A stretch of DNA of 64,000 bases, from NCBI RefSeq assembly GCF_963678975.1, contig NC_089285.1, positions 3,880,531 through 3,944,530 on the forward strand, given 5' to 3'. The position numbers and the translations under genes were made by a program. Origin of the DNA: Dysidea avara (lineage: Eukaryota; Porifera; Demospongiae; Dictyoceratida; Dysideidae). The notes beneath the pieces are model-generated. The model saw only the letters and a program-made list of their open reading frames with translations. It had not been told where the DNA came from and ran no database searches. Shown piece by piece: positions 1 to 51,321 of this stretch; the stretch's first letter is position 1, and each line of letters starts with the position of its first letter.

Positions 1-1006
1 AGCTAGCCAGAAGGTGATGGAGGGGCAGGCATGCCCCCACGAAACACTCAAAATCATTCATGATTGCAAAAAAGGCTAATGACCCAATGGTGGGCTAGCC
101 AACATACGGTGTTGTATTATTACAGCTGAAATAACTAGCTACGTAACTATTTCAGTACTGACTGCTTCCAATCGAGGTAGCTATATTCGTCGAGCATCAT
201 TGCACGTGCCACAACTGTACTCCAACAAATTCATCCACAGTCCCGTAGAGCTAATACTTTAGTGCAAATACAGGTTACTTTACGTTAGCCACAGCCTGTG
301 CTGCAGTCCTAGCACACTGCTGACAGGATTACGTATTCACTCACTTCACTCGGCAAAATTCAAATGCCATGTATTGCACCAAATCCCACCTGTCTTGCTA
401 GCAGAACTTGTAAGCTTGACTGATCCACCTGACTGACTGACTGACTGACAAAGTAAAAACAGACTGCACTGCCGTACGTACAAAGGTCCAGTGTGATCGA
501 CTCGATAAAATAAACTTGGTACATTTATTTAGCTAACACTTTATCATCTCGTAGGCAGTAGGTCCGTAGCGTCATTTGGTCTCCTTTGTCACTTGTGAGT
601 TGTGACTCCTGCCGCGGAGAAGCGGGTCACTCTTTTTAGATTCAAAAATGTTCTATCACGCGAGTAATCTAGGCTAAATATAGAAGTATGTCTCTAATAT
701 TTTCGTTCGATGGATTCACGAGCGAGTTGAATGTTGTGTGTGCGCATTCACTAGCAACCCTTGGTGATACCGCGTAGTAGTGTACATAATTTACAGTCAT
801 TTGCGTGTCAGTTTAATACTGGTAAACTTGTGACGAAGGTTTTAAAAAAAAATCATTTAGTGATGGGGGGACAAATGCCCCCCCTTGCCCCCCCTTAGCT
901 ACGCCTCTGTTCATAGACTCACCTTACCCTTTCTGTACTAAATATTCAGACTGTATTGCGGTTGGCGCGAGCCTCTTAATAATAATTACTCATTTATCAC
1001 GATCTT
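1..1006. other. Gene-free flank with short low-complexity tracts
   Basis: No convincing coding exon is visible on either strand. The stretch holds a short GACT microsatellite near 431-449 and a C/G-rich inverted tract near 864-897 (GGGGGG, spacer, CCCCCCC) of the sort seen at non-autonomous element ends. It lies downstream of the minus-strand composite gene, where the rest of its Ulp1-like protease domain would be expected. I looked for the catalytic Cys region (Q-x-DCG type) and did not find it. Confidence 0.5.
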
Positions 1007-1122
1007 AGCCACTAAAATGCTGCTGACCACCTTATGCAGGTTTTCTCTATAACAACCACCTGTATATAAAGGCCAGATATATCTGGTCCCAAGGTGACCG
1101 TTATAGACAGGTTCCACTGTAA
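1007..1122 (+). repeat. Dispersed repeat, copy A
   Basis: About 115 bp closely resembling 58226-58334 in the same orientation. Both contain ACTAAAATGCTGCTGACC, then ATCTGGTCCCAAGGT, and end in GGTTCCACTGTA. Partial relatives ending in ACAGGTTCCACTGTA lie near 48330-48355 and 49290-49315. This copy abuts the last recognisable Ulp1-like codons of the composite gene and probably interrupts it. Confidence 0.75.
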
Positions 1123-1476
1123 TGAATGCAGTTGTTCGGCAAGAGTTGAGTGTAATGCTTTTAGGCTGAAGAGAATCGTACAAATAAACTACGTTATCTC
1201 TGATGTGCGATAATGCCCAATGCTCACAAAAGTAGTGAAAAAAGAAAAACTCCTCTTCTGCTTACTTTATCAATTCTGGTCGTGCCACACAAAGTGTGGT
1301 TTGTGGGACAGGTATATCAGGAAACTGCTCACGTATCAAGTTACATGTTCCATTCATGTGCCTGTCAGTGAGTGGAGATTCTTCTACCAGTAACTTCTTC
1401 TCATTGTCTTTCAACTTCAACTCGGGCACCCAATATGACACTGCACTTGGTGGAGAGTCATCAATTTCAATCAGAT
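1121..1476 (-). pseudogene. Ulp1/C48-like cysteine protease segment of the composite gene
   Basis: The exon begins at 1476 after a TTCTAG acceptor, in phase with the donor at 1886. It reads YWVPELKLK, then LTDRHMNGTCNLIREQFP, the stretch that precedes Ulp1-like domains in many invertebrate TE proteins. Next come EHWALS (HW, likely catalytic His) and VYLYDSL. An in-frame TAA at 1262-1264 separates the two halves. The part that should carry the catalytic Cys is missing, replaced by a dispersed repeat. Ulp1-like proteases cleave SUMO-type conjugates; MULEs with Ulp1 domains are known in plants. The assignment rests on short motifs. Confidence 0.6.
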
Positions 1477-1629
1477 CTAGAAGTAATGACAATAATATAA
1501 TTATTTTATCTTTGTTGCCTTAAAACTAAAGGTAAAAAGTCAAGTGTTTTATTGAATAGAGTACGTAGATATTCACTGCAATGCCACACTATCTAGCTAT
1601 ACGTTAGTAAGATTTCTTCAGAATACCAT

Positions 1630-1690
1630 ATTGCAAAATAACATTGGCGAAATCTTAATTAGGAAATATTGGCGAAGGAAGTGCTGTGTA
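1630..1690. repeat. Fragment related to the 10583-10760 MITE
   Basis: The words ATTGGCGAAAT and ATATTGGCGAAGGAAGTGCTGT recur in diverged form within 10583-10760 (ATATTGGCGAATTTGGAAGTGCTGT). It lies in the intron between exons 1886-2395 and 1121-1476 of the composite gene. Confidence 0.5.
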
Positions 1691-2579
1691 CAAGGTATTG
1701 TAGTTTGCTTATAAGATCTTGTAGTTCTTGTAGCTGTTCTCACTAATATTGGGGAGACAACAAACCGTGAATAAGGAGTAGCGGAACAACGGAATAAGTA
1801 AAATTGTATTCAGTGATTTTTTGCTATTATCAAAGTTAAACGTGTCATGCAAATGTGGTCAAAATTACATATGTAATTAGCTCACCTAAATCTTTATGTG
1901 TGTTGTTAGCAGGACTCCTTGATGTTGCTGGTATGTGTCGCTCGTCAGAAGATTTATTTCCTTTAAGGCTGAGAGCAAGATTCTTCGGTTTAGCTGATTT
2001 GTGCTTGGCATCACCTGTAGTTGTGCACACAACTGTTAAGCATAATACATCTATGTTATTACTTGGGTTAAACTTTCTCTTAGTATCAGGAGGTCCATCG
2101 GGATCATCATTTTCTTTGTGATATCTCTTTTGTCTTGCTAGATTTTGCTGACTTGATCTCTTCATGCGGCCATCATTTGACAGATTGTCGTATGTTACAG
2201 AGAGCCCTTTCCTTACTGCCATTATCTCCAGAGAATTTGCCATATCTTCTTTGTAGATAATCATCATTGCTTGTTTTAGCGGTTGTCTGTGCGTGAATTT
2301 GCTAAATCGGTTGTATGACTCGACAGCATTCGTGGAACTAGGAAGCTCTTTAAACTGTTTAGGATCCATTGCATTGTAACAGGACGAGGACATACCTGCA
2401 GCAAGTGCACACTTGTAAACATGTGGTGGTGACAAACTGATAGTGAAATGCATACATATGCTAGGACCAAGTTGAGGTAAACACATATCCCTTACAAAGA
2501 TAAACTTGGGTGTGCTCAACCAAGAGTTCATAATATAATTATGAACCCTATGGCAGGCTGTATGCTCCTTATACTTCAA

Positions 2580-3153
2580 GCTGGTATTAGTTGAGACATG
2601 CCAAAAGACTAGTCACATATAACGTTGGTTTTGCAGACCTAGTCACATATGCATTTTTTACAGTGTATATTAGCTCTGAAATGGATAGTAGTTTTTACTA
2701 TCTGGATATCCTGAACAAAATCTTTCCAGATATCCTACGGATAGTGACATCATCACTTGCTATAAAAGCATTGTATATTTTGTTGTGAACATGTTTGTTT
2801 TACTAGTACTTTAGAATAAAACATAACACTTAAATGAAGATTAAGTAAGTTTGTAATAATGTTTAACTGTATCAAGGAAATATTAACATAAAATTGCTTC
2901 AAATTATTAGAAATTATCCTGATGGCATCAAATCACTATCCGGACAGTAAATTATTGTCTAGATATCTGGATAATACGGATATCTGTTTCAGCCCTAGTA
3001 TATATGCACGATTCGAAACAAAGTGCTGTTTTGTTTGGCTAAGGTACAGAAGCACAAAGATACAGGATAGACAAAATTAATGTATACACATGTAAGAGCA
3101 CAAATAATAAAATTAAAAATTTACAATACAGAAGACTCATGTTTATGACTTAC
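2580..3153. other. Intron of the composite gene, nothing else recognised
   Basis: AT-rich stretch between the exon ending at 3154 and the one starting near 2579. Repeated words such as GGATATC occur around 2700-2750 and 2950-2990 (ATATCCGGA/TCCGGATAT-like), but no exon with family similarity was found. Confidence 0.4.
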
Positions 3154-4020
3154 GTAGATGATTGGATCGCATCCACCAATCACACCAATGCCTGCATAGT
3201 TTCCATTTGTTTAGTTTATGCTCTGATTGGTATCCTTTTAAGATCGTAGATTTAGGCAGAATCTCAATGGCTGATGACATGGGCTTATCTCCGCATAAAA
3301 CTTTGAAAAAAAGTCTTACATGAACTTTTGTCTTTGCTGTTGGTATTGCGTAGGCGATTGTCATGAATGCTTTGTGTGCCATAGGAGATGAGCCCTTATT
3401 AACCTTCTCGCAAACTCTCCTAGCAGAGCGTTGGTAATGCACCTGTAGAAAGCATATTGTGCATGCATACATACTTCACAACTTTTATGTCATTCCTTAC
3501 TTGACAGCCCTTAACCACTTGACTAGTAATGTCGTCTCCAATTACAGATTGCAGGCCTTTCAGTTGGGTATCTGACCAGTCAGTTACTATGCCTTTCAAT
3601 GATTTTCCTACGCTGAACTCAAGATGCTTTGCTTTAACTTGTCCAAAAATAGCCTCAAATGCACACTTGTATGCAACAGCATCAAGCTTATTCATTCTAA
3701 CTCGAGCAACTACTGCCCCTACCATATATAAAATGTTAAATCTTACAAAATATGTGTTACACTTACATTGAAGGGTCTCATAATCAAAACAAACAACATT
3801 GAGTAGATATTCCAGTTCTATTGATGCAGCAAATGTAGCATCAACTTCGATAAATTCTGCTTTACTGAAAAGTGTGGCCATGATAGGACTCATAGTTAGC
3901 ACCCATGTGAAGGAAGGTTTCAGTGAGTAGTCACATGCATATTGGTGGCCAAGTGTTGCGTACTCATCCATGTGATCTACAATATTATACACCCATAAAC
4001 CAAAGTAAAATATACCATAT

Positions 4021-4500
4021 AGGGGGAAAGTTTCAATGGACTAAACTTTCACTGTGAAGGCTGACAAGACATATTCGCGGTAAAAGTTTTTCTGTCCCTC
4101 TTCTAAAATAAATTCCATGGGCACTTATGCTTATAACTTTAGGCGCTTGTTATGCATTTCAAGTTTTCGCGCCATGTGCAATGTCTAAGAATATGCCGAC
4201 GCCTCGTTCGCTGACTGTAGACAGCTGCATATGTGGCTATCACGAGTAAAGCGCTATATGGGAGCCAGTAATTGGAGAAGATTTGCAATGCGACAGGGAA
4301 ACAGATAATCCGAATGATATACGCTGTGTATGTGCTCAAGCGAAGACAAATCGTTGGACACGTGCTCCGCAATATATCTCGAGCATGTTCCGTGTGAAAA
4401 TAGTAAATTCTTGGTTATAATATTTTAGCTGAGAAACTTTTGCGGTTTACTGCTAAACCGCAAAAACTACGAAAGTTTAGCGCATTGAAACTTTCCCCCT
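4021..4500. mobile_element. 480-bp MITE with perfect 18-bp terminal inverted repeats
   Basis: The left end AGGGGGAAAGTTTCAATG is the exact reverse complement of the right end (4483-4500). The match continues imperfectly through CTAAACTTTC on both sides. It is flanked by AT-rich TAT/AT, so a TA-type duplication is possible. It has no coding capacity for a transposase. It lies in an intron of the composite gene, between exons 4526-4714 and 3767-3976. Confidence 0.85.
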
Positions 4501-4778
4501 ATGCGGTACTAACATAAATACTTACCAAGACTACCACATTGCTCTGTGCTGTGTTTGTCATATTCAACACTATCATTCTCAAATGAAAGAATGACCACAC
4601 CAGGATTTCTTTCTTCTTTGGTCTCTTTTAGTACAGCTGCTCTGATATTCTTGATCTTTCCTTTGTGAGTTGCTGCAAGTGATCCTGCTGCTGGCATGTA
4701 TGTTAATCCTTTCCCTAACAAATTTACATTAATGGGATGATTATTTTTACCACATATGAACCTAATGCCATGTAATAC

Positions 4779-5949
4779 CTGTCACTAAATCATGAGTCTT
4801 GAGAGTTGGGTCTAGCTTTACAGTATGTCGGATGTCTTCCACTATCTTAGATGGTACTTTTGTTGGACCATGAATATTATGGTTGTGCAAGTTGTTCAAC
4901 TTCATATCACCAACTCTAACAACTCCAGAAAGCCATCGCCGTTTATCTTCATCTTTTTCTGGCCAAGCGTATACAAACTCTACTGGGCATTCTTTGTTGA
5001 AAAGAAGCTCCGTTTCAGGATGGTCTGGACAAGGACGATGTTCACCAGCTGGTATCGTATAGGCACAGTTCTCAACTGAACAACACTTTATGCCACCGCA
5101 AGGTGCGATACTATAGTAGAGAAATTCTTCGTTTCCGTTAACAGTAAACTTTACTTTACGCGGTGCTCTTAATTTTCCTTTGCTGATCTGAATATTATTA
5201 AAGAGAAAATGCTCATCTTTCTGGGTGTAAAAAGGTAGGGCTGAAACGTCACACACATAGCCCAAACGCTGCGGATGTTCCATTTGAAATATGCCTGGGT
5301 ATTGGTAATCCTCCGGACTTTCAATGTTGTACCAATTCACACTACTTGACAACAGATTTGTAAGAACCGGCAGAAGATGCGTTCCTTTAGTTTGTCTTGT
5401 TTGTGTCACATTTTCATGGGCTGCGGTAGTAGCCGAAATGGCTGGACTCTGTTGTGAATTGATTACAGGAAGCTCAAGCTTTTTAGGTGACTGTATAAAT
5501 TCTTTACCAGCTTCAGTGACTGTATAACTGTTGAACCCCAAATTTGAAACCTTTCCTTCTCCATGTCCCAACTGCATATTCCTATCCAGCAATCCAGAAA
5601 GCCATGCTTGTCGAATGCGAATGCGCCAAGAGATTTCAGGTAAGTGGAATTGAGTTCCAATACCAAGAGATGCCGATGCACCATCTGATTGCACAAGACT
5701 CTTGCAGTATCCACGCAAGTATTCGGCAATCTACATAGATGATATACATGAAGTAGAATGTGAGCTTCAACAATACCTACCTTCTTTTCATCCATGGCAG
5801 GAATTTCCATCACTGTTTGCACAATTGCCATCAATTCTCTCTCACAGTCAACAATCTTCACAGAATCCAACTGAGAGCAAACATCGCAACATTGGCCAGT
5901 TACGGTTTTAGTGCTGTTGGCCTCTCCAAAGTATTCAAGTAGCACTTCC
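4779..5949 (-). pseudogene. RecQ zinc-binding and winged-helix region joined to a zinc module
   Basis: Exon 5781-5949 encodes EVLLEYFGE and CCDVC, the hallmark of the RecQ zinc-binding domain. After a small intron, exon 4779-5730 continues in phase 0 with a helical segment around ISWRIRIRQAWLSG and YTVTEAG, which fits the RecQ winged helix. It then runs into about 130 residues of low-complexity linker and a Cys/His module (APCGGIKCC, ENC, CPDH, and LHNHNIH after a conserved W). That last pattern resembles the GCM1/WRKY/FLYWCH zinc folds found in front of MULE transposases. Helicase end and transposase DNA-binding module therefore share a single exon, which argues strongly against two neighbouring genes. 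Confidence 0.75.
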
Positions 5950-6356
5950 CTTCAGCATTTGGTATGAAGATGAGCAAGACAAAACCTATGTAAATGGTAT
6001 GAAATCTGTAAGTGGAATGATATACTGTATGTTTAACATTGTCCGCACATACTATTTCAAAGGTTAATCACACTTAGCAACTGTTGCCTAGCAACCGTTG
6101 CCACGGAATTAAAGGCATCCACCTTTGCTAAGCAATTGTGAGATTTTGTGGTTATCATGATGGTAGGGTACAACATAACACGATTGTCATGTAGGCAAAA
6201 ATGACAATTGTAGTGTACAAAACAGACAAGGCACAACTACTAGGGAAACTTTGGTCACCACTAAATACAATATACACATAGTTGGAATCAAAAAATGGAA
6301 TTTATAGAATTGAGTGATCTTGCTATATAGTTACAGCATTTGTTTTGTAGAATTAT

Positions 6357-6590
6357 TTAATGATATACAATGCCTTCAGTGTTTGTTCCCGATTTTGGAG
6401 AGCTAAACACCATGCTAAAGACATCTTGATTAATCTCACAATCTAAACAATTGCTTACCCCTACATCTATCACTTCATCTAAAGTTAATATTTTAGCAGC
6501 GCAACTGCATTTTACAGTAGCAATTAAGTGTGCTGTACTAATAATACAGCATACTTCACAGTAAATATCTGTTCTATGACCAACGATAAA
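6357..6590 (-). other. Unrecognised Cys-rich open stretch in an intron
   Basis: An open frame of 77 codons without ATG lies on the minus strand, in the unresolved gap between helicase exons 7493 and 5949. It contains RTDIYCEVCC, KCSCAAK, DEVIDVG and NCLDC, a Cys spacing that could bind zinc, and a good GTAAGC donor candidate follows DEVIDVG. I do not recognise the family. It may be a missing exon between RecQ motif VI and the zinc domain, or a TE remnant. Confidence 0.3.
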
Positions 6591-6677
6591 CTATTATTCT
6601 GACAAAACCTGAAACAGTTTGAGTCACCTAAATAAGCACTTCACTAAAATGACTAGAGGCACTTTATTACAGTTTAA

Positions 6678-7348
6678 GGTGGCTGGGAACAGTTTCTGTA
6701 TGGCTTCACCATGAATTTACAGGGCCTAAAACAAGCAAGCTATCTTCATGAAGTGCATTGAACTAACAGAAATGTATGAAGCAGTTTGTTCTCTACCATT
6801 TACAACAAACAGGAGCTCTCTGGGATGCGTGTAGCGTAAGTTACAAATTTAGCCCTTCAAAGTGAACTCTTCCTCCGCGCTTGACGCTATGGGGCTGGAT
6901 TCGCTGTTAGACACTATTTACCTGATCATCTATCATTGTGTGGAGCTACTTTTCCTACCAGATCTTTAGTTTACGCGTTAATTCTACCCATGTCACACAA
7001 AGATTTGAAACGGTTTTTTTTAATTCGCCACTGCCAGGTCGAAGCGAATACTAAAAATCGACTTCTGCACAATTGCAGCTTATTTACTACTGATTGCCCA
7101 TCCAAAATTTGACAGTCATATCTTGAAAAACCGGCAACTAGTTCATTTTTGTATGGAGGCTTGTAATAATAGCGCGCAGCGATCTTGTTAAATGCTGTGA
7201 TGATGTGTGCTTACGCAACATAATTATATTCATTTGCAAATGACAGGAACTGGTGGTCAACCACAGTAATGATTACATTTAAGCCTCATAGCTAATGTGA
7301 TTGCTTACATAACACTGTTGAAACCTTATGAAAACTGTTCGAGCCACC
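6678..7348. mobile_element. TTAA-flanked MITE, 671 bp
   Basis: The left end GGTGGCTGGGAACAGTTT pairs with the right end AAAACTGTTCGAGCCACC (one mismatch and small differences). TTAA flanks both ends (6674-6677 and 7349-7352), as expected for piggyBac or Kolobok-type integration. No transposase frame is present inside. It sits in an intron of the composite gene. Confidence 0.8.
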
Positions 7349-8078
7349 TTAAGCACCATTTACTTAGTTGCACAAGAATTAACTTCACCACCCAAGGCTT
7401 TTTTATATAAAGAAGGTGTGTACTTTAATCAGTTTGATACGTTCAGATAATTCATATTATGCATGTGTACACATATTTACCAATTCACGTACTTCCAAAC
7501 TTGTTGAAATTGTGCCAATAAAGCATGTTGTTCTTCTGTCTACCTGTGCTTACACCAGTACACTGTATGCTGCTAATTTGCTTCACTGAACAGAACAATT
7601 CCTAGTGCATGGATTTAAGATGAGCACAATAATCAACTACGTACAGTATTAGCATTTACCATTAACTTGTCGGCCATCTCTTCCAGCCCTGCCCAGTTCT
7701 TGTACAAGTTCCTCCAGTGTCGCAGGACATCCGATTCTTATAACAAGATCCACATTGGGTACATCAACTCCCATTCCAAAGGCTGTCGTACATACCATCA
7801 CCTACAAAACATAGGCAATGTATGCACATGCATGCACTTATTTGCTTTATCTGACCTGAATGTTTGAGTGATCTGGACACCAGTTTTCAACTGTCTTTAC
7901 TTTGTCGTGGCTGGACATACCCTTTCCATGATAAGCACAACTGTTGATTCCTTTTTCTCTCAATGCTATTGCCAGAGGTGCCACATCCTTAACAAAATCA
8001 GTGTAAACAATGACCCTTTGGTGTTGTATAAGATCAAACAGATAATCTGTTAGTACAGAATAGTAGGAAGTAGTACCT

Positions 8079-8101
8079 GGGGGGGGGGGGGGGGGGGGGG
8101 G
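8079..8101. repeat. Homopolymer run of 23 G inside the helicase exon
   Basis: On the coding (minus) strand it is poly-C, read as a poly-proline run between a HYFI segment and GTTSYYS. The downstream text TACTAACAG could instead be a branch point and acceptor, making the run the pyrimidine tract of an unseen intron; no donor is obvious. Confidence 0.8.
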
Positions 8102-8530
8102 TATAAAATAATGCATTGCATGGTTAATCAATAACTGCAAACCATTTTTGGGCAATTTTGTTAGCTCCATTGCATGAAAAGTAACGTTAGGTTTGTTTAT
8201 ACTGGAAACTTCTAGTACTGGGTCTTGCAACATATCTTGCAGCTGCTCTTTGATGAAAGGAGTGGCTGTGGCTGTCAGTGCCATAATAGGCACAGCTGGA
8301 AAGTGATCCTTCACATTCACTATATACCCATATTGTGGTCTATACGACAGATATACACATACATATGAGCATTTATTGTAACTTCAAACACATAAGTAAC
8401 AAGGTTGCACTGTGGCTACTATCCGGGGCGGCTATTGTGTAAGCCATGGCTATTAACTGGTAAAATACGGTAGTTTGAAAACACTAAACAAGCTACTGTA
8501 ATATCACCCGAGAAGATTTATATTTCTATA

Positions 8531-10508
8531 GTACGTTCGTGTTGAGCTGAATCCTGAGTTGTTGATTAAGAAGCCATACAAGATCAAAGGCTTTAAACAT
8601 AATGTTAATGACGCATTTATTCGTAAGCCCATGTTATGGGCGCGCACTTAATTGTTGAGAATATGGCGTCCAGTGTACTGTCAGCGAGTGCGGAGCGAAA
8701 CCCTCTTGGGAAGACGTTAAACAGCCAAACGAAGTATCTACTTATGAAACTATGGGAGTACTTTAAGCAAGAAGTGAAGAAATGTAAAATTTCTATCAAC
8801 ATCACGGAGAGAATCTCGAAGGCCAGCGGTATTGTATCATGCCTTTTTTGCTGGGTTTTGGCATACATTACGCCACGCAGGGATTTCAAGGACATCCATT
8901 AGAATGGAGCACCGCAAGAAAGGCGATTTATTTATGCCAAGAAAAAGGTACAAAATGCACTTTGCACAAGCCCGCTCAATTCTGTAATCGTCAGGTACAA
9001 ATGTTCACGAGTCCTTGTTGATACAGACAGTTTTAACCCAGATACTATCAGACAAGATCCATTCATTGTACGGAAGGGAGGAAATCTATCGCTCTCAAAG
9101 ATTTTGGTAAGTTAAATTTTGAAACCTGGAACTTTGTCACTTACTCCGTCTTAGGCCAAACTTAAGAATGATGGTGTTTTCTCTGGGGGTAGAACATTGC
9201 TTTAAAGAGTGTTGAGTGATATGGGATTTAAGTACAAGACGATTAATGACAAGAGGTTAGCATTGAAACTGTTTGTTCTTTAATTTCACTACACGTATGT
9301 GCAGGGTATGCTATGAGCAGCCCTGCACAGTCCATCAGTATCATAAATATTAAAGACGAACGAGGTGCAACAGAACTGAAGGAAGACCAGTTGTGTATTT
9401 GGATGAGACTTGGGTAATGAAGAACTTCTAGAGCAATTCCTCATCCAAATCGGCAGTGATAGTGAAGATGGTGATGGTGGTATTAATGAATTGTCCACTA
9501 GCAGCAGCGGGTCCAAGTCTTCTTCTGGGCTTACTTCATCTGATGTAAGATTGTTTGATATTTGCAGCATTGGTGTTACAACTTGATTTTGTTCCCCAGG
9601 AGTCATCAGGTAGCTGGGATTAAACTCTGTGAAGTACATAAAAATACAGATGAAGTACGTGTAAGTGTGTGCACTTTAATAAAAAATATCATTGCTTTAT
9701 TGTGCTATCCGAAGTTGAACATACCATCCCTTGTATATTTAATCAGTGCAGGAGTGTTTGGAAGTCACTACAGGTACTATCAGCCCAAATTCATATAAAC
9801 AGTATTATTTCATTTGTTGAAACTTTTAGAGTTTTTTGGGAATGTAACTTCAAAAACAAAATGCCGGCTGGAAAAACTGTGTACATGTGTGGCGAAGTGA
9901 TGAGAAAAGTATTAAAATGACAAATTGACTAAATGGGAACAGAAGACGATAGTCAGCTGTGGTGAATGTGAAGTAAAATACATGTTGTTTGGCTCACTTG
10001 CAGGAACACCAATGCTACATAACGGATTTTGAGCTGTTATAATTTGGTTTTTTTCTTTTTTGAGGCTGAAGAAGTTTTTACCTGAATATAAGCAGGCCAC
10101 TTATCTTCTAAATACAGTGCAACAGTGGCCCCAGCTCTTCTACTTATGCAACTCTGTTTTACACACACAAAATCTGTTTTATTTTTCTTGTAAAAGTGTA
10201 TTACAGCCTCTTACATAAGGGATGGTGAAATCATGCGTGTTGAGGGCGGGTATGTGACGTCTGGCTTCGCCACAAACATGTGTCAACATGACCATCAAAG
10301 GGCCGCGCTTTAGAGGCTTCCCCATTGAAAATGTATGGCGAAACTTTACAGTGCCATAACGGGAGTGTCTTACATTCGAATGAAGCGCTTTTAATATATT
10401 TTTAGTGGATCGAGAAGCGCTACGTATCGAGCTATACAGGAGCCCCATGCGATGTAGCAATCGTAAGTTATTAATCGTTTTTGAGGGTTCAGCTCAACGC
10501 GAACGTAC
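8531..10508 (+). mobile_element. Tc1/IS630-like DNA transposon with TIRs and TA duplication
   Basis: The ends GTACGTTCGTGTTGAGCTGA (8531) and, inverted, GTACGTTCGCGTTGAGCTGA (from 10508) match over about 25 bp with two mismatches. TA dinucleotides flank both sides (8529-8530, 10509-10510), the target duplication of Tc1/mariner/IS630 elements. The 1978-bp body carries remains of a plus-strand transposase, opposite in direction to the composite gene whose motif II-III intron it occupies. The boundaries come from the sequence; the superfamily comes from the transposase motif and the TA site. Confidence 0.88.
8663..9590 (+). pseudogene. Broken IS630/Tc1-like transposase
   Basis: The start at ATG 8663 gives a helix-turn-helix type N-terminus (NPLGKTLNSQTKYLL, then NITERISKASGI). 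After small introns come LVDTDSFNPDTIRQ, a stop-broken SGGRTLL, and DMGFKYKTINDKR, a typical segment just before the catalytic core. Then PVVYLDETWVMK near 9387-9415 carries the catalytic DE motif of this family. A TAG follows almost at once, and the reading resumes in an acidic Ser-rich tail (IGSDSEDGDGG). The middle of the DDE domain is therefore deleted and the copy is non-autonomous. Splice sites at 9110/9154 (GTAAGT...TTAG) look real. Confidence 0.75.
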
Positions 10509-10582
10509 TATATCATTCAATTTATTGGGTGTAGTTTACATTATTCACACATACATTAATGACCCTGCAGAGTGTACAGTAC

Positions 10583-10760
10583 GAGACAAAATTTTGGTGG
10601 GAGAAAAATTTGGCGAATGCTCGATTAGTAATAATTGGTGGATAATATATTGGCGAATTTGGAAGTGCTGTATATATATATTCTCTATTTTTTATTTAAT
10701 TGGACAAGAAAATTTTGGCGAATTGAATAAAATTCGACAAATTGGCCAAAATTTTGTCTC
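10583..10760. mobile_element. 178-bp MITE with GAGACAAAATTTTGG ends
   Basis: GAGACAAAATTTTGG at 10583 is the exact inverse of CCAAAATTTTGTCTC ending at 10760. The interior repeats TTGGCGAA several times. No coding capacity. It lies between the Tc1/IS630-like element and helicase exon 10861-11341. Confidence 0.8.
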
Positions 10761-11399
10761 ATGCGGTAGTCCTGTGTTAATGTGTATGCAGGAGGAACTG
10801 TAGAGCATTCCATGCATAGCCCATGTACATGCATGTACACACATACATACATGTACTTACCTGAAAGTTTTCCAACTGATAATCAGATGAGCTTCATCAA
10901 TGGCCACCATACTTAGCTTGCTATCTCTGAATAAATTCAAGAAAATTTCTCAAGGTTGTTGATTTGTGCTGTTGTAAAATGATTCAGGTGTTGTGTAAAC
11001 GATTCTGTATTCTCCATTTAGTATTGCTGGAGTTACGTCACCTTTCTGAGCTGAGCCAAGAAAAGTAGCACTGATCCCTTTGTCTGTCAACTTGTTTACT
11101 TGATCAGTCATTAGACTGATTGTAGGAGAAATAACAACGGCTGTTTTGCCATCATGCAATGGTGGAATGCAGAAACACAGGCTTTTCCCACTGCCTGTGG
11201 GCTGTATGATAAGACTGTCTCTTCTCATCAAAGTGGCTACAATAGCATTTATTTGCCATGGATGCAAGTTTGCTAATCCAAACTTTTGTGCTGCCAGACC
11301 ACTAATTATTGTGTCTTGGAATTCAGGGACTTTATCAGTAGCTATAATTACAATAATAATAATAATGATGAGAGCTACGTATTCAATACTTGTGTGTAC

Positions 11400-11777
11400 C
11401 TTTACACAAGTCCACCTGAGGACTACTCAGTACAATAGAACTAGTTGAGTGATGTTTCCTAGTAGGATGCTTATGTCGGACATCGGCACATGGTGCACAG
11501 TAATGATGTGCACATTGTTTACAGAATACTTCTGCCAATTCACCACAGTTTTCACATTCTGTATCTACAGAAATTGTTATATTACATGCATAATACTGTA
11601 GATATTTGAATTCTCACTTCTTGTGCTCAAATTCTCTTCTGTGGCTGTGAGCTGCCTTGAATATTGGTCACTTACAAATGCGCTGGCCTCTTCAATATCT
11701 GAACATTCCATTTTATCACTAGCATACAGGCTTGTAGTATAGAGGCTACTATTTTCTTCATTGTCAATCTCCATCAT
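11400..11777 (-). pseudogene. B-box zinc finger N-terminus of the composite gene (two exons)
   Basis: Exon 11618-11777 starts at an ATG and gives an acidic, Ser-rich leader (MEIDNEENSS...), ending at a GTGAGA donor. Exon 11400-11564 follows a TGTAG acceptor in matching phase and encodes a Cys/His cluster: CENC, then CKQC, then CAPC, then HKH and HH, spaced like a B-box (C-x2-C-x7-C-x2-C-x4-C-x2-C...H...H). B-boxes usually mediate protein contacts or oligomerisation in TRIM-like proteins. The exon ends at a GTACAC donor in phase 1, which matches the helicase exon beginning at 11341. The start is chosen as the first ATG before the leader; an upstream exon cannot be excluded. Confidence 0.65.
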
Positions 11778-11946
11778 TGTTTAATATTCGTAAGCAGCAT
11801 GAAGCTGCACGCTAGCAACTGACCAAGGTAGGAGACTGAGTGGCAATGCACTACCTGCTTTTATATGCAACGCTGGGCATACTTGTAAGACTAGCTTTAA
11901 AACCAGTACAACTGGATAGTGGACTGGTATTACCAATTGTAAAATA

Positions 11947-12073
11947 CCAACACCTTTCAAGGAGTAAACAGGACACAGAGAAATATTTTTAGCTAATACC
12001 AACACCTTTCTCTGCCAGACATGTCAACTAGCATTCAAGGAGTAAACAGGACACAGAGAAATATTTTTAGCTC
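11947..12073. repeat. Two-copy tandem duplication, about 79-bp spacing
   Basis: TTCAAGGAGTAAACAGGACA...AAATATTTTTAGCT occurs at 11956-11994 and again at 12035-12072, with ACCAACACCTTTC also repeated. It lies just upstream of the composite gene start; a promoter role cannot be judged. Confidence 0.75.
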
Positions 12074-12079
12074 TAAACA

Positions 12080-12345
12080 AGGTGGAGTGTTAATAATGAA
12101 GTATTATTTTATGCCTACAACAATGTAGGGAATAATTAGTGCTTCTTTGAACAATATTTTGCCTACTACATTGTAGGGAACATTTAGTGCACCTTAGCAC
12201 TAAATCTTTCCTACATATAAGGGCAAAAAATAATATTTGAGTATAGTGCTTCATCCCACATGTATTATAGGGGAGATTTAGTGCTCAGTAGTACTAAATC
12301 TTGCCCATATACATAGGAACAAAAGTGCATTTAGTGCCATTTTAT
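12080..12345. repeat. Palindrome-rich AT repeat block
   Basis: Several short inverted pairs: AGGGAACATTTAGTGC with GCACTAAATCTTTCCT, and GGGGAGATTTAGTGC with ACTAAATCTTGCCC. They look like nested remains of a MITE family. No gene is present. Confidence 0.5.
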
Positions 12346-15300
12346 CTGGACCCGTAACTTGAAATGCAAATTTCAGGATATATATCCTATAAACCCTGGC
12401 TGGCCATGGTACATTTAAATTAATCTATGGCTGGCCATGGTGCATCTATGGCTGGCCATGGTATCTCTCTGACTTGCTATGAAAAAAAATGGCCTTGATG
12501 TAGGAGCAATACCGTCAAATTCTATATACAAAACTCAAGCTGAAATCGATTGTGGGGATTTATTATTGGTCACGTGATGAAAACCATACTTTTGATTTTC
12601 AATCCTACAGCACTCAGACGGAAGCGATTTGTCACCCTTGCCATCCTATGAGTTGAGAAACATTGGTTTAAGATGAGAACTAGTACTATAGCATATTTAC
12701 AAGCGGTTTGCTGCATTTTCGAATACGGACACACCTACTGTTTGAGTAACAAGAGATGAACACTCTACAGCGAAGCTTGCCCCAGTAGATGCTTAGTAAA
12801 TGTTGTAAACCATCTGTAAAAGGATGCAGTTGCTTTTTGTAAGATTGCTTAATTGAACTTATCCATGATACTGTTAGGACTAGCCCGTTCGTGTTAATAA
12901 ATGTAGTCACAATATTAGTTGCTGATGTCCCATAATGGAATTTCACAAGTTTGTCTATGATTATAATAAACTCATTGGTCAGTCTCGTATTAGTTTCGGT
13001 GATTAATCGCCCGCAGGCTCTTCGCCTAGATTGGCATGGTACATATCAGTTGTATCACATGTTCTCGTGATTTACTTGATACGTACACCCATGCTCTCTG
13101 CCCGTCATTTACTCAGGCACATGACATAGCTTCGTATTGCTTGTTTACCTAAATAGTTGTTGTTACATGTTAACATTAATGTAAGATTATAGCCAATACA
13201 TTTAACTATGTTTCTTTTACTTTATGTGATTGTGTATAACTACACACATGATGATGATTGTGATTTGGATATTCAGCTCGTAAGTTGATATTTTGTTACA
13301 ATAGTGTATATGTACCATGAAGCCTCCTAACTTCAAAAGCAAATTTCAGGATATATATCCTATAATCCCTTGCTGGCCATGGTACATTTAAGTTAATGTA
13401 GTATAGCCAGCCATGGCTTATCTATGGCTGGCCATGGTACCTCTCTGGCTTGCTATGAAAAAGAAAATGGCCTTGATGTAGGAGCACTACCGCCAAATTC
13501 TTTATTCAAAAACTCAAACAGAAATCAATTGTGGGAGTTTATTATTGGTCACGTGATGGAAACAATACTTTTGATTTTCAATCCTACAGCACTCAGACGG
13601 AAGCGATTTGTCACCCTTGCCATCCTATGAGTTGAGAAACATTTGTTTAAGATGAGAACTAATACTATAGCATATTCAGAAGCTGTTTGCTGCATTTTCG
13701 AATACGGACACACCCACTGTTTGAGTAACATGAGATGAACACTACAGCGAAGCTTGCCCCAGTAGATGCTTAGTAAATGTTGTAAACAGTCTGTAAAAGA
13801 ATGCAGTTGCTTTTTGTAAGATTGCTTAATTGAACTTATCCATGATACTGTTAGGACTAGCCCGTTCGTGTTAATAAATGTAGTCACAATATTAGTTGCT
13901 GATGTCCCATGATCGAATTTCACAAGTTTGTCTATGATTATAATAAACTCATTGATCAGTCTCGTATTAGTTTCGGTGATTAATCGTCCGCAGGCTGTTC
14001 GCCTAGATTGGCATGGTAAGTATCAGTTGTATCACATGTTCTCGTGATTTACTTGATACGTACACCCATGCTCTCGGGCCGTCATTTACTCAGGCACATG
14101 ATACAGCTTCGTATTGCTTGTTTACCTAAATAGTTGTTGTTACATGTTAACATTTATGTAAGATTATAGCCAATACATTTAACTATGTTTCTTTTACTTT
14201 ATGTGATTGTGTATAACTACACACATGATGATGATTGTGATTTGGATATTCAGCTAGTAAGTTGATATTATGTTACAATAGTGTATATGTACCATGAAGC
14301 CTCCTAACTTCAAAAGCAAATTTCAGGATATATATCCTATAATCCCTGGCTGGCCATAGTACATTTAAGTTAAACTATAGCCGGCCATGGCTCATCTATG
14401 GCTGGCCATGGTACCTCTCTGGCTTGCTATGACAAAGAAAATGGCCTTTATGTAGGAGCATTACCGCCAAATCTTTATTCAAAAACTCAAACAGAAATCA
14501 ATTGTGGGAGTTTATTATTGGTCACGTGATGAAAACCATCCTTTTAATTTTGCATCCTACAGCACTCAGATAGAAGCAATTTGTCACCCTTCCAATCCTA
14601 TGAGTTGAGAAACGTTTGTTTAAGGTGAGAACTAGTGCTATGCCATGTTGACAAGCGGTTTGCTGCATTTTCGAATACAGACATGCCCACTATTTGAGTA
14701 ACAAGTGATGAACACTCTACAGCGAAGCTTACTCCAGTAGATGCTTAGTAAATGTAGTAAACAGTCTGTAACAGTATGCAGTTGCTTTTTTGTAAGATTG
14801 CTAAATTGAACTTATCTGTGATACTGTTAGGACTTGCCCGTTCGTGTTAATATATGTAGTCACAATATTAGTTGCTGATGTCCCATAATCGAATTTCACA
14901 AGTTTGTCTATGATTATAATAAACTCATTGGTCAGTCTCGTATTATTTTCTGTGATTAATATCCCACAGGCTCTTCGCCTAGATTGGCATGGTACGTATC
15001 AGTTGTATCACATGTTCTCGTAATTTACTTGATACGTACACCCATGCTCTCTGCCCGTCATTTACTCAGGCACATGACACAGCTTCGTATTGCTTGTTTA
15101 CCTAAATAGTTGTTGTTACATGTTAACATTAATGTAAGATTATAGCCAATACATTTAACTATGTTTCTTTTACTTTATGTGATTGTGTACAACTACATAC
15201 ATGATGATGATTGTGATTTGGATATTCAGCTCGTAAGTTGATATTATGTTACAATAGTGTATATGTACCATGAAGCCTCCTAACTTCAAAAGCAAATTTC

Positions 15301-18300
15301 AGGATATATATCCTATAATCCCTGGCTGGCCATGGTACATTTCAGTTAAACTATAGCCGGCCATGGCTCATCTATGGCTGGCCATGGTACCTCTCTGGCT
15401 TGCTATGAAAAAGAAAATGGCCTTGATGTAGGGGCATTACCGCCAAATTCTTTATTCAAAAACTCAAACAGAAATCAATTGTGGGAGTTTATTATTGGTC
15501 ACGTGATGAAAACCATCCTTTTAATTTTGCATCCTACAGCACTCAGATAGAAGCAATTTGTCACCCTTGCCATCCTATGAGTTGAGAAACATTGGTTTAA
15601 GATGAGAACTAGTGCTATAGCATATTTACAAGCGGTTTGCTGCATTTTCGAATACGGACACACCTACTGTTTGAGTAGCATGAGATGAACACTCTACAGC
15701 GAAGCTTGCCCCAGTAGATGCTTAGTAAATGTTGTAAACAGTCTGTAAAAGGATGCAGTTGCTTTTTGTAAGATTGCTTAATTGAACTTATCCATGATAC
15801 TGTTAGGACTTGCCCGTTCGTGTTAATAAATGTAGTCACAATATTAGTTGCTGATGTCCCATAATCGAATTTCACAAGTTTGTCTATGATTATAATAAAC
15901 TCATTGGTCAGTCTCGTATTAGTTTCGGTGATTAATCGCCCGCAGGCTCTTCGCCTAGATTGGCATGGTACATATCAGTTGTATCACATGTTCTCGTGAT
16001 TTACTTGATACGTATACCCATGCTCTCTGCCCGTCATTTACTCAGGCACATGACAGAGCTTTGTATTGCTTGTTTACCTAAATAGTTGTTGTTACATGTT
16101 AACATTAATGTAAGATTATAGCCAATACATTTAACTATGTTTCTTTTACTTTATGTGATTGTGTATAACTACACACATGATGATGATTGTGATTTGGATA
16201 TTCAGCTCGTAAGTTGATATTTTGTTACAATAGTGTATATGTACCATGAAGCCTCCTAACTTCAAAAGCAAATTTCAGGATATATATCCTATAATCCCTT
16301 GCTGGCCATGGTACATTTAAGTTAATGTAGTATAGCCAGCCATGGCTTATCTATGGCTGGCCATGGTACCTCTCTGGCTTGCTATGAAAAAGAAAATGGC
16401 CTTGATGTAGGAGCACTACCGCCAAATTCTTTATTCAAAAACTCAAACAGAAATCAATTGTGGGAGTTTATTATTGGTCACGTGATGGAAACAATACTTT
16501 GATTTTCAATCCTACAGCACTCAGACGGAAGCGATTTGTCACCCTTGCCATCCTATGAGTTGAGAAACATTTGTTTAAGATGAGAACTAATACTATAGCA
16601 TATTCAGAAGCTGTTTGCTGCATTTTCGAATACGGACACACCCACTGTTTGAGTAACATGAGATGAACACTACAGCGAAGCTTGCCCCAGTAGATGCTTA
16701 GTAAATGTTGTAAACAGTCTGTAAAAGAATGCAGTTGCTTTTTGTAAGATTGCTTAATTGAACTTATCCATGATACTGTTAGGACTAGCCCGTTCGTGTT
16801 AATAAATGTAGTCACAATATTAGTTGCTGATGTCCCATAATCGAATTTCACAAGTTTGTCTATGATTATAATAAACTCATTGATCAGTCTCGTATTAGTT
16901 TCGGTGATTAATCGTCCGCAGGCTGTTCGCCTAGATTGGCATGGTAAGTATCAGTTGTATCACATGTTCTCGTGATTTACTTGATACGTACACCCATGCT
17001 CTCGGGCCGTCATTTACTCAGGCACATGATACAGCTTCGTATTGCTTGTTTACCTAAATAGTTGTTGTTACATGTTAACATTTATGTAAGATTATAGCCA
17101 ATACATTTAACTATGTTTCTTTTACTTTATGTGATTGTGTATAACTACACACATGATGATGATTGTGATTTGGATATTCAGCTAGTAAGTTGATATTATG
17201 TTACAATAGTGTATATGTACCATGAAGCCTCCTAACTTCAAAAGCAAATTTCAGGATATATATCCTATAATCCCTGGCTGGCCATAGTACATTTAAGTTA
17301 AACTATAGCCGGCCATGGCTCATCTATGGCTGGCCATGGTACCTCTCTGGCTTGCTATGACAAAGAAAATGGCCTTTATGTAGGAGCATTACCGCCAAAT
17401 CTTTATTCAAAAACTCAAACAGAAATCAATTGTGGGAGTTTATTATTGGTCACGTGATGAAAACCATCCTTTTAATTTTGCATCCTACAGCACTCAGATA
17501 GAAGCAATTTGTCACCCTTCCAATCCTATGAGTTGAGAAACGTTTGTTTAAGGTGAGAACTAGTGCTATGCCATGTTGACAAGCGGTTTGCTGCATTTTC
17601 GAATACAGACATGCCCACTATTTGAGTAACAAGTGATGAACACTCTACAGCGAAGCTTACTCCAGTAGATGCTTAGTAAATGTAGTAAACAGTCTGTAAC
17701 AGTATGCAGTTGCTTTTTTGTAAGATTGCTAAATTGAACTTATCTGTGATACTGTTAGGACTTGCCCGTTCGTGTTAATATATGTAGTCACAATATTAGT
17801 TGCTGATGTCCCATAATCGAATTTCACAAGTTTGTCTATGATTATAATAAACTCATTGGTCAGTCTCGTATTATTTTCTGTGATTAATATCCCACAGGCT
17901 CTTCGCCTAGATTGGCATGGTACGTATCAGTTGTATCACATGTTCTCGTAATTTACTTGATACGTACACCCATGCTCTCTGCCCGTCATTTACTCAGGCA
18001 CATGACACAGCTTCGTATTGCTTGTTTACCTAAATAGTTGTTGTTACATGTTAACATTAATGTAAGATTATAGCCAATACATTTAACTATGTTTCTTTTA
18101 CTTTATGTGATTGTGTACAACTACATACATGATGATGATTGTGATTTGGATATTCAGCTCGTAAGTTGATATTATGTTACAATAGTGTATATGTACCATG
18201 AAGCCTCCTAACTTCAAAAGCAAATTTCAGGATATATATCCTATAATCCCTGGCTGGCCATGGTACATTTAAGTTAAACTATAGCCGGCCATGGCTCATC

Positions 18301-21300
18301 TATGGCTGGCCATGGTACCTCTCTGGCTTGCTATGAAAAAGAAAATGGCCTTGATGTAGGGGCATTACCGCCAAATTCTTTATTCAAAAACTCAAACAGA
18401 AATCAATTGTGGGAGTTTATTATTGGTCACGTGATGAAAACCATCCTTTTAATTTTGCATCCTACAGCACTCAGATAGAAGCAATTTGTCACCCTTCCTA
18501 TCTTATGAGTTGAGAAACATTGGTTTAAGATGAGAACTAGTGCTATAGCATATTTACAAGCGGTTTGCTGCATTTTCGAATACGGACACACCTACTGTTT
18601 GAGTAGCATGAGATGAACACTCTACAGCGAAGCTTGCCCCAGTAGATGCTTAGTAAATGTTGTAAACAGTCTGTAAAAGGATGCAGTTGCTTTTTGTAAG
18701 ATTGCTTAATTGAACTTATCCATGATACTGTTAGGACTTGCCCGTTCGTGTTAATAAATGTAGTCACAATATTAGTTGCTGATGTCCCATAATCGAATTT
18801 CACAAGTTTGTCTATGATTATAATAAACTCATTGGTCAGTCTCGTATTAGTTTCGGTGATTAATCGCCCGCAGGCTCTTCGCCTAGATTGGCATGGTACA
18901 TATCAGTTGTATCACATGTTCTCGTGATTTACTTGATACGTATACCCATGCTCTCTGCCCGTCATTTACTCAGGCACATGACAGAGCTTTGTATTGCTTG
19001 TTTACCTAAATAGTTGTTGTTACATGTTAACATTAATGTAAGATTATAGCCAATACATTTAACTATGTTTCTTTTACTTAATGTGATTGTGTACAACTAC
19101 ATACATGATGATGATTGTGATTTGGATATTCAGGGAGTAAGTTGATATTATGTTACAATAGTGTATATGTACCATGAAGCCTCGTTGCTTGAAATGCAAA
19201 TTTCAGGATATATATCCTATAAACCCTGGCTGGCCATGGTACATTTAAATTAATCTATTGCTGGCCATGTCTCATCTATGGCTGGCCATGGTGCATCTAT
19301 GGCTGACCATGGTATCTCTCTGACTTGCTATGAAAAAAAATTGCCTTGATGTAGGAGCAATACCGTCAAATTCTTTATACAAAACTCAAGCTGAAATCGA
19401 TTGTGGCGATTTATTATTCGTCACGTTATGAAAACCATACTTTTGATTTTCAATCCTACAGCACTCAGACGGAAGCGATTTGTCACCCTTGCCATCCTAT
19501 GAGTTGAGAAACATTGGTTTAAGATGAGAACTAGTACTATAGCATATTCAGAAGCGGTTTGCTGCATTTTCGATTACGGACACACCTACTGTTTGAGTAA
19601 CATGAGATGAACACTATACAGCGAAGCTTGCCCCAGTAGATGCTTAGTAAATGTTGTAAACAGTCTGTAACAGTATGCAGTAGCTTTTTGTAAGATTGCT
19701 TAATTGAACTTATCCATGATACTGTTAGGACTAGCCCGTTCGTGTTAATAAATGTAGTCACAATATTAGTTGCTGATGTCCCATAATCAAATTTCACAAG
19801 TTTGTCTATGATTATAATAAACTCATTGGTCAGTCTCGTATTAGTTTCGGTGATTAATCGCCCGCAGGCTCTTCGCCTAGATTGGCATGGTAAATATCAG
19901 TTGTATCACATGTTCTCGTGATTTACTTGATACGTACACCCATGCTCTCTGCCCATTATTTACTCAGGCACATGACACAGCTTCGTATTGCTTGTTTACC
20001 TAAATAGTTGTTTTTACATGTTAACATTTATGTAAGATTATAGCCAATACATTTAACTATGTCTCTTTTACTTTATGTGATTGTGTATAACTACACTCAT
20101 GATTATTCTTGTGATTTGGATATTCAGCTTGTAAGTTGATATTATGTTACAATAGTGTATATGTACCATGAAGCCTCGTAACTTGAAATGCAAATTTCAG
20201 GATATATATCCTATAAACCCTGGCTGGCCATGGTACATTTAAATTAATCTATTGCTGGCCATGGTGCATCTATGGCTGGCCATGGTATCTCTCTGACTTG
20301 CTATGATAAAAAATGCCTTGATGTAGGAGCAATACCGTCAAATTCTTTATACAAAACTCAAGCTGAAATCGATTGTGGGGATTTATTATTCGTCACATGA
20401 TGAAAACCATACTTTTGATTTTCAATCCTAAAGCACTCAGGCGGAAGCAATTTGTCACCCTTGCCACCCTATGAGTTGAGAAACATTGGTTTAAGATGAG
20501 AAATAGTCATATAGCATATTTACAAGCGGTTTGCTGCATTTTCGAATACGGACACACCTACTGTTTGAGTAACATGAGATGAACACTCTACAGCGAAGCT
20601 TGCCCCAGTAGATGCTTAGTAAATGTTGTAAACAGTCTGTAAAAGGATGCAGTTGCTTTTTGTAAGATTGCTTAATTGAACTTATCCATGATACTGTTAG
20701 GACTAGCCCGTTCGTGTTAATAAATGTAGTCACAATATTAGTTGCTGATGTCCCATAATCGAATTTCACAAGTTTGTCTATGATTATAATAAACTCATTG
20801 GTCAGTCTCGTATTAGTTTCGGTGATTAATCGCCCGCAGGCTCTTTGCCTAGATTGGCATGGTACGTATCAGTTGTATCACATGTTCTCGTGATTTACTT
20901 GATACGTACACTCATGCTCTCTGCCCGTCATTTACTCAGGCACATGATACAGCTTCGTATTGCTTGTTTACCTAAATAGTTGTTGTTACATGTTAACATT
21001 TATGTAAGATTATAGCCAATACATTTAACTATGTTTCTTTTTCTTTATGTGATTGTGTATAACTACACACATGATTATTATTGTGATTTGGATATTCAGC
21101 TGGTAAGTTGATATTATGTTACAATAGTGTATATGTACCATGAAGCCTCGTAACTTGAAATGCAAATTTCAGGATATATATCCTATAAATCCTGGCTGGC
21201 CATGGTACATTTAAATTAATCTATAGCTGGCCATGGTGCATCTATGGCTGGCCATGGTATCTCTCTGACTTGCTATGAAAAAAAATTTCCTTGATGTAGG

Positions 21301-26404: not shown

Positions 26405-26896
26405 TTATAATTCCTCTACAAGTAACTTTGCTATAGTAGGTGAAGTTTGATCAACAGTAGCGAACACTTCCAGCCATTTTGTCAAGTAGTCCATGAGAAC
26501 TACCACATAGTTTTTCCCAGTGCTGCTACAAGGGAACTTGATAATGTCCACCTCAACGTGGTCAAAGGCACCACCCACTGAAATTGGGGTCAGGTACAGC
26601 TTGATAGGTTTTCCCACTTGTCGTGAAGCACATACCTCACAGGCTCTACTCCATCTACTGATGTCACTATGCATGTTTGGCCACCAATATGTTTTACCTA
26701 TCTGACTGTGGATCTTTGCATCTCTAAGGTGCCCTGCAAACCTCCCTTGATGTACTTCATGAAACACACGTAATCTATCTTCCTTTGGTAACACAATCCT
26801 TAAAGACATATCAGCTGTTACATGATACAAGGTGTCATCTATGACAACATACCTGGATTTCCCTAGGATCAGTTCCCTAGCTTTCTTATCTTCCAT
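26405..26896 (-). pseudogene. Gypsy integrase N-terminal and core part
   Basis: The zinc-binding HHCC pattern is visible: HEVHQGRFAGH, then YWWPNMHSDISRW and CEVCASRQ. The core follows with FDHVEVDIIKFP (first Asp) and VVVLMDYLTKWLEVF. The frame ends at 26405 where the second catalytic Asp segment begins in another frame. The integrase would insert the cDNA copy into host DNA. Confidence 0.9.
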
Positions 26897-27132
26897 TGGA
26901 AGCGCTCCTGTCTGTAGGTACTACATGACAATTTGTAATTCTGGGTCCAATGCTTGCCTCATATTCAACGGAACTTCCTCCCCTGCTTGTTTCCAAAGGT
27001 ATGCTGTCCAGTGGCACACCCTCCCTGTCCTTTGCTGAAGATACCTGGGATTGCAACTCACTAGCTGAGGCAGTCTGTCTAGGCGGTGTGTCTGCTGTTA
27101 CATCTACACAGCCAACCTCAGTCAATGCACAT

Positions 27133-41345: not shown

Positions 41346-41926
41346 AGCAGGAAGGCATGTAGTAGAAAATTTGGCTAAACAAATTTTTTTTTGAAATTTT
41401 GTAGAAATTCATTTTGTGCCATTTTGAAGGCATGTTTGGGCTTGATTGTTGTCCCTGATCACTACTGTCAAGCTGTCATGAAGGAATTATAAGGATGACT
41501 TCTGGTTGACCTTTTTCATAGGCCGTGTGCATGATAACATGCTTCACCTGTTGCAAATAACACACTTCACCTCATATTTCGTTGTTGCAATTGAAGATTC
41601 CAAACTGTATGTTGTATATAAGTACTCCCATAACCACCTTGTCCACAATCAGTTTGTCCACAATCACTTTTCACCTTGTTCACTCTTACATAAGAAATCA
41701 ATGCCAAAGCTTGAATAGATGCTGGGCTTGTTTAAACAGTGGTTCCAAAATCACTGTTAGGAAATAAACTCCCAAGCTTCTATACAGATAAATGGTAATA
41801 CAGTTTTGATAAAAGTACTTATACATCTATTGGAAATATTTTTGGAGGTGTGTGGAAGGCACATTATGTCTTGTTTTGTTCCACAAGTTGTGATGATAGT
41901 AAATTAGTACTACTAAGTGTACTAAT
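41346..41926. other. Upstream region of the Roc-COR gene, no exon recognised
   Basis: The first Roc exon may be preceded by a splice acceptor at 41971-41972, so a 5' exon could lie here or beyond the repeats. I found no convincing candidate. Confidence 0.4.
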
Positions 41927-51190: not shown

Positions 51191-51321
51191 AATGAGAATA
51201 ATATTGAAATTTGTTATTTGCAGACAAATCACATGACTAAACTGTTTGATAGGTTCCCGGAAATCATGTTCATCGATGCACCTACAATGTAAATGGTCAT
51301 GGAATGCCATTGTACTGCCTG

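Follow-up and report, generated by a model that had tools for sequence, protein, structure and literature searches.

Does a locus that carries both a RecQ helicase and a transposase hold two neighbouring genes, or one gene of a mobile element that brings its own helicase? The question is raised by a 64,000-nucleotide stretch of the genome of the sponge Dysidea avara (NC_089285.1, positions 3,880,531 to 3,944,530; hereafter the window, whose own coordinates are used below). Here a minus-strand series of exons, predicted from the DNA and assembled into a model by hand, passes from a B-box-like module through RecQ to an exon shared by the RecQ winged helix and a transposase zinc module, and on to a transposase core (D-D-CxxH-E) and a Ulp1/C48-type segment. 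In our reading the locus is what is left of a DNA transposon of the Mutator-like (MULE) kind, now decayed; its gene would encode one long protein joining a RecQ helicase to a D-D-E (Asp-Asp-Glu) transposase, together with modules specific to individual lineages, and we give this reading a probability of roughly 80%.

The exon in which the two parts meet (4784 to 5730; all exons given here lie on the minus strand) carries the RecQ winged helix first and the transposase zinc module after it. The initial annotation had placed both in one exon, and this exon is real: alignment and a protein search match it to 24 related proteins, six of which cover at least 99% of it. One of the relatives, P0004, 99% identical over 57% of the exon, is almost certainly the window copy itself. 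The same genome holds 98 matches to the exon, spread over 91 places; many of the matches are incomplete or contain stops. At least 60 of these 91 have a RecQ or DEAD match no more than 8 kb upstream on the same strand (the RecQ matches compared being 77 of 132 from one search, at one or two per place, and 10 of 50 from another), and among the matches listed RecQ occurs only downstream, or only on the opposite strand, at none of them. Among viral contigs, the junction alignment gave 84 pattern matches, but none of these could be confirmed as a relative. The letters LHNH, from which an HNH-type module had been proposed, belong to the transposase zinc module, and Pfam scans of the exon returned no HNH profile; an HNH nuclease was rejected on these grounds. 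We also observed long frames with the zinc module and without RecQ among the matches listed (954 amino acids at C1:38943895, 882 at C13:16611643, and others), possibly a sister lineage without the helicase.

In relatives of the window copy, both parts lie in a single reading frame. Of the first four loci to be read over their full length, three have an uninterrupted stop-to-stop frame with RecQ and transposase (L041, 1256 amino acids; L042, 1682; L040, 1825), and in the fourth, L043, one stop separates two frames. A search for long database proteins with the transposase part of L041 returned eight, of which P0030 (1272 amino acids), P0032 (1287) and P0037 (977) match DEAD, Helicase_C, the RecQ zinc domain and RQC, and P0033 matches the last three of these. 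Such database fusion proteins likely stem from other species. The window copy, which is interrupted and has extra stretches between its RecQ and transposase exons, could by itself be taken for a RecQ gene or pseudogene wrongly joined to an adjacent MULE. This explanation is extremely improbable given the single frames in L040, L041, L042, P0030, P0032 and P0037, the exon common to both parts, the constant order and strand at the junction places counted above and the agreement of the RecQ and transposase trees; for the family, the sequence comparison refutes it. Separate genes, or a fusion confined to one locus, had been named at the outset as the mark of an annotation artefact, and the DNA gives neither.

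The trees, built from 11 sequences for each part (IQ-TREE, LG+G4), recover identical groups but for one node, which sets the window sequence against L029/L007-L031; its support is 89 in the tree of the RecQ part but 50 in that of the transposase. This agreement fits one fusion followed by joint descent. Ratios of nonsynonymous to synonymous substitution rates (dN/dS, NG86) were taken for two pairs. For L041 against L043, three parts of the helicase give 0.094, 0.087 and 0.095 and the transposase gives 0.044, and for L040 against L042 the ratios are 0.074 in the helicase and 0.090 in the transposase; these low values are weakened by saturated dS (1.5 to 4.2), by the failure of YN00 in 9 of 9 cases and by dS being undefined for the kinase, linker and Tudor parts.

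Joint descent bears on a further explanation, by which RecQ, kinase and Ulp1 are passengers, fragments of host genes that a MULE caught and that have no role in its cycle. MULEs tend to pick up host gene fragments, according to the accessible part of PMC6446971; some derivatives of the window family retain only the Ulp1 tail, and L041 has lost part of a helicase lobe. We nevertheless consider passengers unlikely, as throughout the sampled family RecQ and transposase share their descent, and RecQ has kept its frame and motifs in several lineages. The case is thinner for the kinase, which is seen in two lineages and has an undefined dS.

The copies speak for mobility. L040 (on C15), L044 (C1) and L045 (C4) are alike across about 8.4 kb and end abruptly: comparisons with L044 give 98.4 to 99.7% identity across 6.3 kb and then 90 to 96% across the next 1.7 kb, and L040 and L045 are 95.9% identical across 8.5 kb. 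A perfect 9-bp duplication encloses L040, and another encloses L045. Among six copies of this type, which we call kinase-type, the duplication matches at 9/9 positions in three (C15, C4, C12) and at 7/9 in one (C13); flanks paired across different copies match at no more than 6/9. Terminal inverted repeats of the kinase-type copies measure only about 4-5 bp.

For the family of the window element itself, searching with the Ulp1 exon brought up derivatives with internal deletions, in which about 590 bp of the 5′ end are fused to the Ulp1 tail; compared with L059, the copies L060 to L067 show 94-99% identity. The terminus GGGTCCAGATAAAATGGCACTAAA of the window element starts all 10 copies examined (the nine from L059 to L067 plus L057, which is longer; 10 of 12 loci, leaving out L056, which is the C9 paralogue itself, and L058), the flanks of these copies are unrelated, and the inverse of this sequence at the 3′ end forms a terminal inverted repeat with it. 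When three members were examined for duplications, L060 had 9/9 at its ends and L059 had 9/9 displaced by 6 bp. These perfect duplications indicate that some copies moved recently enough for them to stay intact. Could the family nonetheless be a domesticated host gene with a RecQ-transposase fusion? Frames of up to 1825 amino acids and low dN/dS would suit such a gene, and a young transposon would show both too. Near-identical copies with sharp ends and unrelated flanks on different chromosomes, the 9-bp duplications, the internal deletion derivatives and the stops in many copies all speak against it, so that a host gene is very improbable and, by ends and duplications, largely refuted. Of the features that the initial annotation proposed to look for, multiple copies, 9-bp duplications and, in the window family, terminal inverted repeats were found, and its proposal of a MULE lineage encoding its own RecQ is supported by the termini, the duplications and the single frames in relatives.

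To which superfamily does the transposase belong? In the window it is spread over exons at 4526 to 4775 (in a frame different from that of the junction exon, hence a frameshift), 3769 to 3974 (first catalytic Asp, VDATF), 3499 to 3719 (second catalytic Asp, VTDWSD), 3151 to 3442 (3′ of the CxxH motif, which straddles the splice) and 1890 to 2396 (catalytic Glu, STNAVES, and linker). Alignments, which also place both Asp exons, show the D-D-E triad with C/DxxH between the second D and the E, a motif also found in hAT, P, Kolobok and Dada (PMC9587614, accessible part). Two results fall short of pointing to a MULE. All Pfam transposase matches are under the curated cut-offs, namely Transposase_mut (0.007) and MULE (0.04 to 0.09 in three of eight proteins), there being no others. 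Moreover, when a model of the transposase core (mean pLDDT, a model confidence score, of 74.8) is compared by Foldseek, the best match is Rous sarcoma virus integrase (E 4.2e-5), followed by ISCth4 (1.9e-4), so that this comparison by itself identifies a D-D-E core but not a MULE. The VIA ranking of the model has ISCth4 first, followed by Hermes and the P element; absence from structure lists was not counted against other superfamilies. Among PDB sequences, a profile of one of the alignments gave only two weak, unrelated matches. Target duplications of MULEs are 8-11 bp long, mostly 9 bp, and some MULEs are without terminal inverted repeats (PMC6446971, accessible part). The assignment to MULE would thus rest mainly on the duplications and the modelled fold.

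A transposase of another RecQ-carrying superfamily (Kolobok/KolobokH or Academ), or of the KDZ type, has in its favour that KolobokH and Academ carry RecQ, that the Pfam MULE matches are weak and that KDZ elements often carry Ulp1. It is quite unlikely in view of duplications that are 9 bp and not TTAA, of Pfam transposase matches that, though weak, are to Transposase_mut and MULE only, and of the first place that the VIA ranking of the model gives to ISCth4. Kolobok in particular was ruled out by the 9-bp duplications of non-TTAA sequence. Pfam scans gave no KDZ transposase match, and CxC6 matched weakly in 2 of 25 junction proteins (best E 0.086).

Turning to the helicase, the RecQ motifs reported in the initial annotation were confirmed: the spliced window exons, with X at each stop, match solved RecQ helicases (4tmu, E 3.9e-55) as well as Pfam DEAD (9.5e-25) and Helicase_C (2.5e-19). 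Motifs I to II (GSGKS, DEAH) lie in the exon at 10861 to 11341, which has one in-frame stop and alone matches DEAD at 4.8e-16. Three exons placed by the exon model and the structure match hold motif III (TATAT; 8143 to 8339), the beginning of the second helicase lobe (7856 to 8076) and motifs V and VI (7660 to 7801); they are followed by a fragment within which the frame ends (7572 to 7601) and by the zinc-binding exon (LLEYFGE...CCDVC; 5781 to 5984; one in-frame stop; RecQ_Zn_bind 0.002, below cut-off). The window winged helix is recognised by alignment alone. RQC exceeds its cut-off in two of the eight long database proteins (P0032 and P0037), and TIGR00614 does so in one of three loci (L041, among L040, L041 and L042). 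With core, zinc and winged-helix region, the predicted protein is a RecQ helicase. It resembles BLM, WRN and bacterial RecQ in its helicase lobes and its zinc and winged-helix regions; those, however, are cellular proteins without a transposase, whereas here a transposase is joined on.

The modules around this pair are more variable. After a first exon without a known domain, which forms the predicted N-terminus (11618 to 11777), the exon at 11400 to 11564 resembles a B-box, as had been proposed, but both of its Pfam scores fall beneath the cut-offs (ANCHR-like_BBOX, 3.5e-5, 24.3 against 27 bits; zf-B_box, 3.7e-4, 21 against 24.1 bits). A protein kinase precedes RecQ and transposase in L040 (Pfam 3.2e-37) and L042 (1.4e-28). 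By Foldseek, the C-terminal part of L041 resembles PHF1 and PHF19 in their Tudor domains (probability 1.00, E about 0.02); L040 has a Tudor-like end by alignment, and matches of L042 to Agenet (0.05) and Tudor_5 (0.08) are hints only.

The Ulp1-like segment proposed earlier was confirmed, although of its two halves only the one with His and Asp (1140 to 1478, one in-frame stop) falls inside the window; the other, with the Cys (KDCG), is found beyond the left edge, past a stretch without a counterpart in the C9 paralogue. That paralogue has an open Ulp1-like exon of 215 amino acids. The alignment contains the catalytic set HW, YDS (YNS in the C9 copy), Q and KDCG, and all eight members match Peptidase_C48 (PF02902), weakly and below cut-off (best E 0.025). 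Several homologues of 35-36% identity in the same genome, such as C4:36563193, exceed the PF02902 cut-off. On this basis the segment is a predicted member of the Ulp1/C48 peptidases; a comparison of the exon with PDB sequences gave no match of note. The exon has 150 matches in its own genome, the full number scored, and with Ulp1-type modules so numerous the Ulp1 part is not special to RecQ elements. Ulp1 modules are also found in some plant MULEs. One match, C9:3938979, lies about 3 kb downstream, on the same strand, of L014, a 40%-identical junction copy with RecQ upstream, and the order RecQ, transposase, Ulp1 may hold in that lineage too. As a separate observation, the derivatives L059-L067 have lost RecQ and transposase, and six of their nine Ulp1 tails are free of stops over the matched 132-142 amino acids; the protease may perhaps have a use of its own there.

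Where does the element begin and end? The initial annotation had given 1121-11777, where the element indeed lies, but it is longer. Alignment with the C9 paralogue (93 to 99% identity, piecewise, across window positions -2367 to 12354) places its 5′ terminus at 12353, so that it fills 1 to 12353 of the window on the minus strand, and comparison of the ends puts the 3′ terminus some 2.4 kb beyond its left edge (C14:3878091). The 5′ terminal region (12114 to 12353) has inverted-repeat similarity to the 3′ end (AAAATGGCACTAAA). Four stretches have no counterpart in the C9 paralogue: 8528 to 10511, either a nested insertion or a loss from C9; 6678 to 7349; 2670 to 2997; and -372 to 1110 (1 to 1110 inside the window), which splits the Ulp1 exon. 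No further copy of the element was found at 12001-64000 of the window.

Several observations weigh against a transposon with a working fusion protein. The window copy is broken: three of its exons have in-frame stops (11341-10861, 5984-5781, 1478-1140) and the frame shifts near 4780. It also has no target duplication at its ends. The C9 paralogue is defective too, lacking the counterpart of 3277-3704 and with it part of the transposase. Two of the six kinase-type copies (C1 and C11) are without a duplication, the end of the C11 copy being different and its boundary set by hand. L044 and L045, near-identical to L040, have frames that are shorter at the front and split within the transposase; the frame of L040 is whole. 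Compared with P0030, L041 is 32 residues short in the second helicase lobe, so an open frame is no proof of an active helicase. Finally, 31 of the 91 junction places have no RecQ among the matches listed, although 60 is a lower bound because the C9 paralogue, one of the 31, does have RecQ.

If the element works as its domains suggest, the transposase would bind and cut the element's own ends, and the RecQ tethered to it would act on the DNA intermediate of that element. By analogy we infer a role of the helicase in transposition, most likely in homology-directed gap repair through D-loop unwinding, like that of BLM at P-element gaps in flies; such templated repair would refill the donor site and raise the copy number. 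Alternatively, RecQ could open the strands at the element ends or serve replicative transposition. Ulp1, kinase and Tudor-like modules would probably tune contacts with host SUMO, phosphorylation or chromatin. Restoring the donor site is believed to be a task for which cut-and-paste transposons depend on host repair. Flies without the RecQ helicase BLM have a severe defect in synthesis-dependent strand annealing in a P-element-based gap-repair assay (PMC8951532, accessible part). More tentatively, and at somewhat less than even odds, we suggest an old eukaryotic, probably animal, MULE lineage in which RecQ was fused before the subfamilies split and works in transposition (helicase-coupled excision, gap repair or copying), and in which kinase, Tudor-like reader, B-box and SUMO protease were repeatedly swapped.

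Compared with known systems, the element shares with MULE/MuDR the 9-bp duplications, the D-D-E triad with CxxH, the N-terminal zinc module and, in the window family, terminal inverted repeats; it differs in having RecQ inside the transposase protein and kinase, B-box-like and Tudor-like modules besides. Bacterial IS256-family transposases (ISCth4) have neither a helicase nor the eukaryotic modules. Academ and AcademH are also transposons with a helicase, but of another transposase superfamily, and target duplications of Academ are short. KolobokH likewise combines RecQ with a D-D-E transposase with C/DxxH; there, however, RecQ lies downstream of the transposase and the target duplication is TTAA (PMC9587614, accessible part), whereas here it lies upstream in the same frame and the duplication is 9 bp. 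The same part of that source describes KolobokH, of the Kolobok superfamily, in fungi and RecQ in one rhodophyte Kolobok; RecQ in Academ transposons is given in the accessible part of PMC3627910, and the helicases of AcademH and KolobokH are mentioned in that of PMC10799480.

The initial annotation knew of no described family with this set of domains. That stands in so far as no MULE with RecQ is named in the titles or abstract openings of the publications among the matches listed, a coverage from which subscription journals are largely absent; it does not stand for RecQ or related helicases as such, which are described in Kolobok (KolobokH) and Academ. A term search of the main text of a 2019 MULE survey (PMC6446971) gave no "helicase", "sponge" or "Ulp1"; the words "helicase", "Ulp1" and "kinase" were likewise absent when PMC13359780 was searched for them. 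One protein with both transposase and RecQ would offer a natural test of whether an element can bring its own repair or unwinding step. The family also illustrates how modules for signalling, chromatin and SUMO come together in a single transposon protein, from which composite host genes might arise, and it calls for caution when RecQ genes are counted in such genomes.

The remainder of the window holds other features. Directly upstream of the element, at 12762-22879, a unit of about 976 bp is repeated 11 times in tandem; for the first family listed, identity to the reference is 94-100% in ten copies and 86% in the last. Further arrays consist of 61.5 copies of a 31-bp unit (38516-40422) and of 6.6 copies of a 129-bp unit (51320-52166), the latter overlapping an open frame. 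Retroelement remains with an integrase zinc domain (2.1e-16) and a reverse transcriptase (3e-8) lie at 26408-28014 on the minus strand. On the plus strand, a 703-amino-acid frame at 41903-44011 has a COR-A domain (8.7e-9) and a weak Ras match, perhaps a Roco-type gene, and a frame at 57044-57640 matches an OTU-like cysteine protease (2.5e-13).

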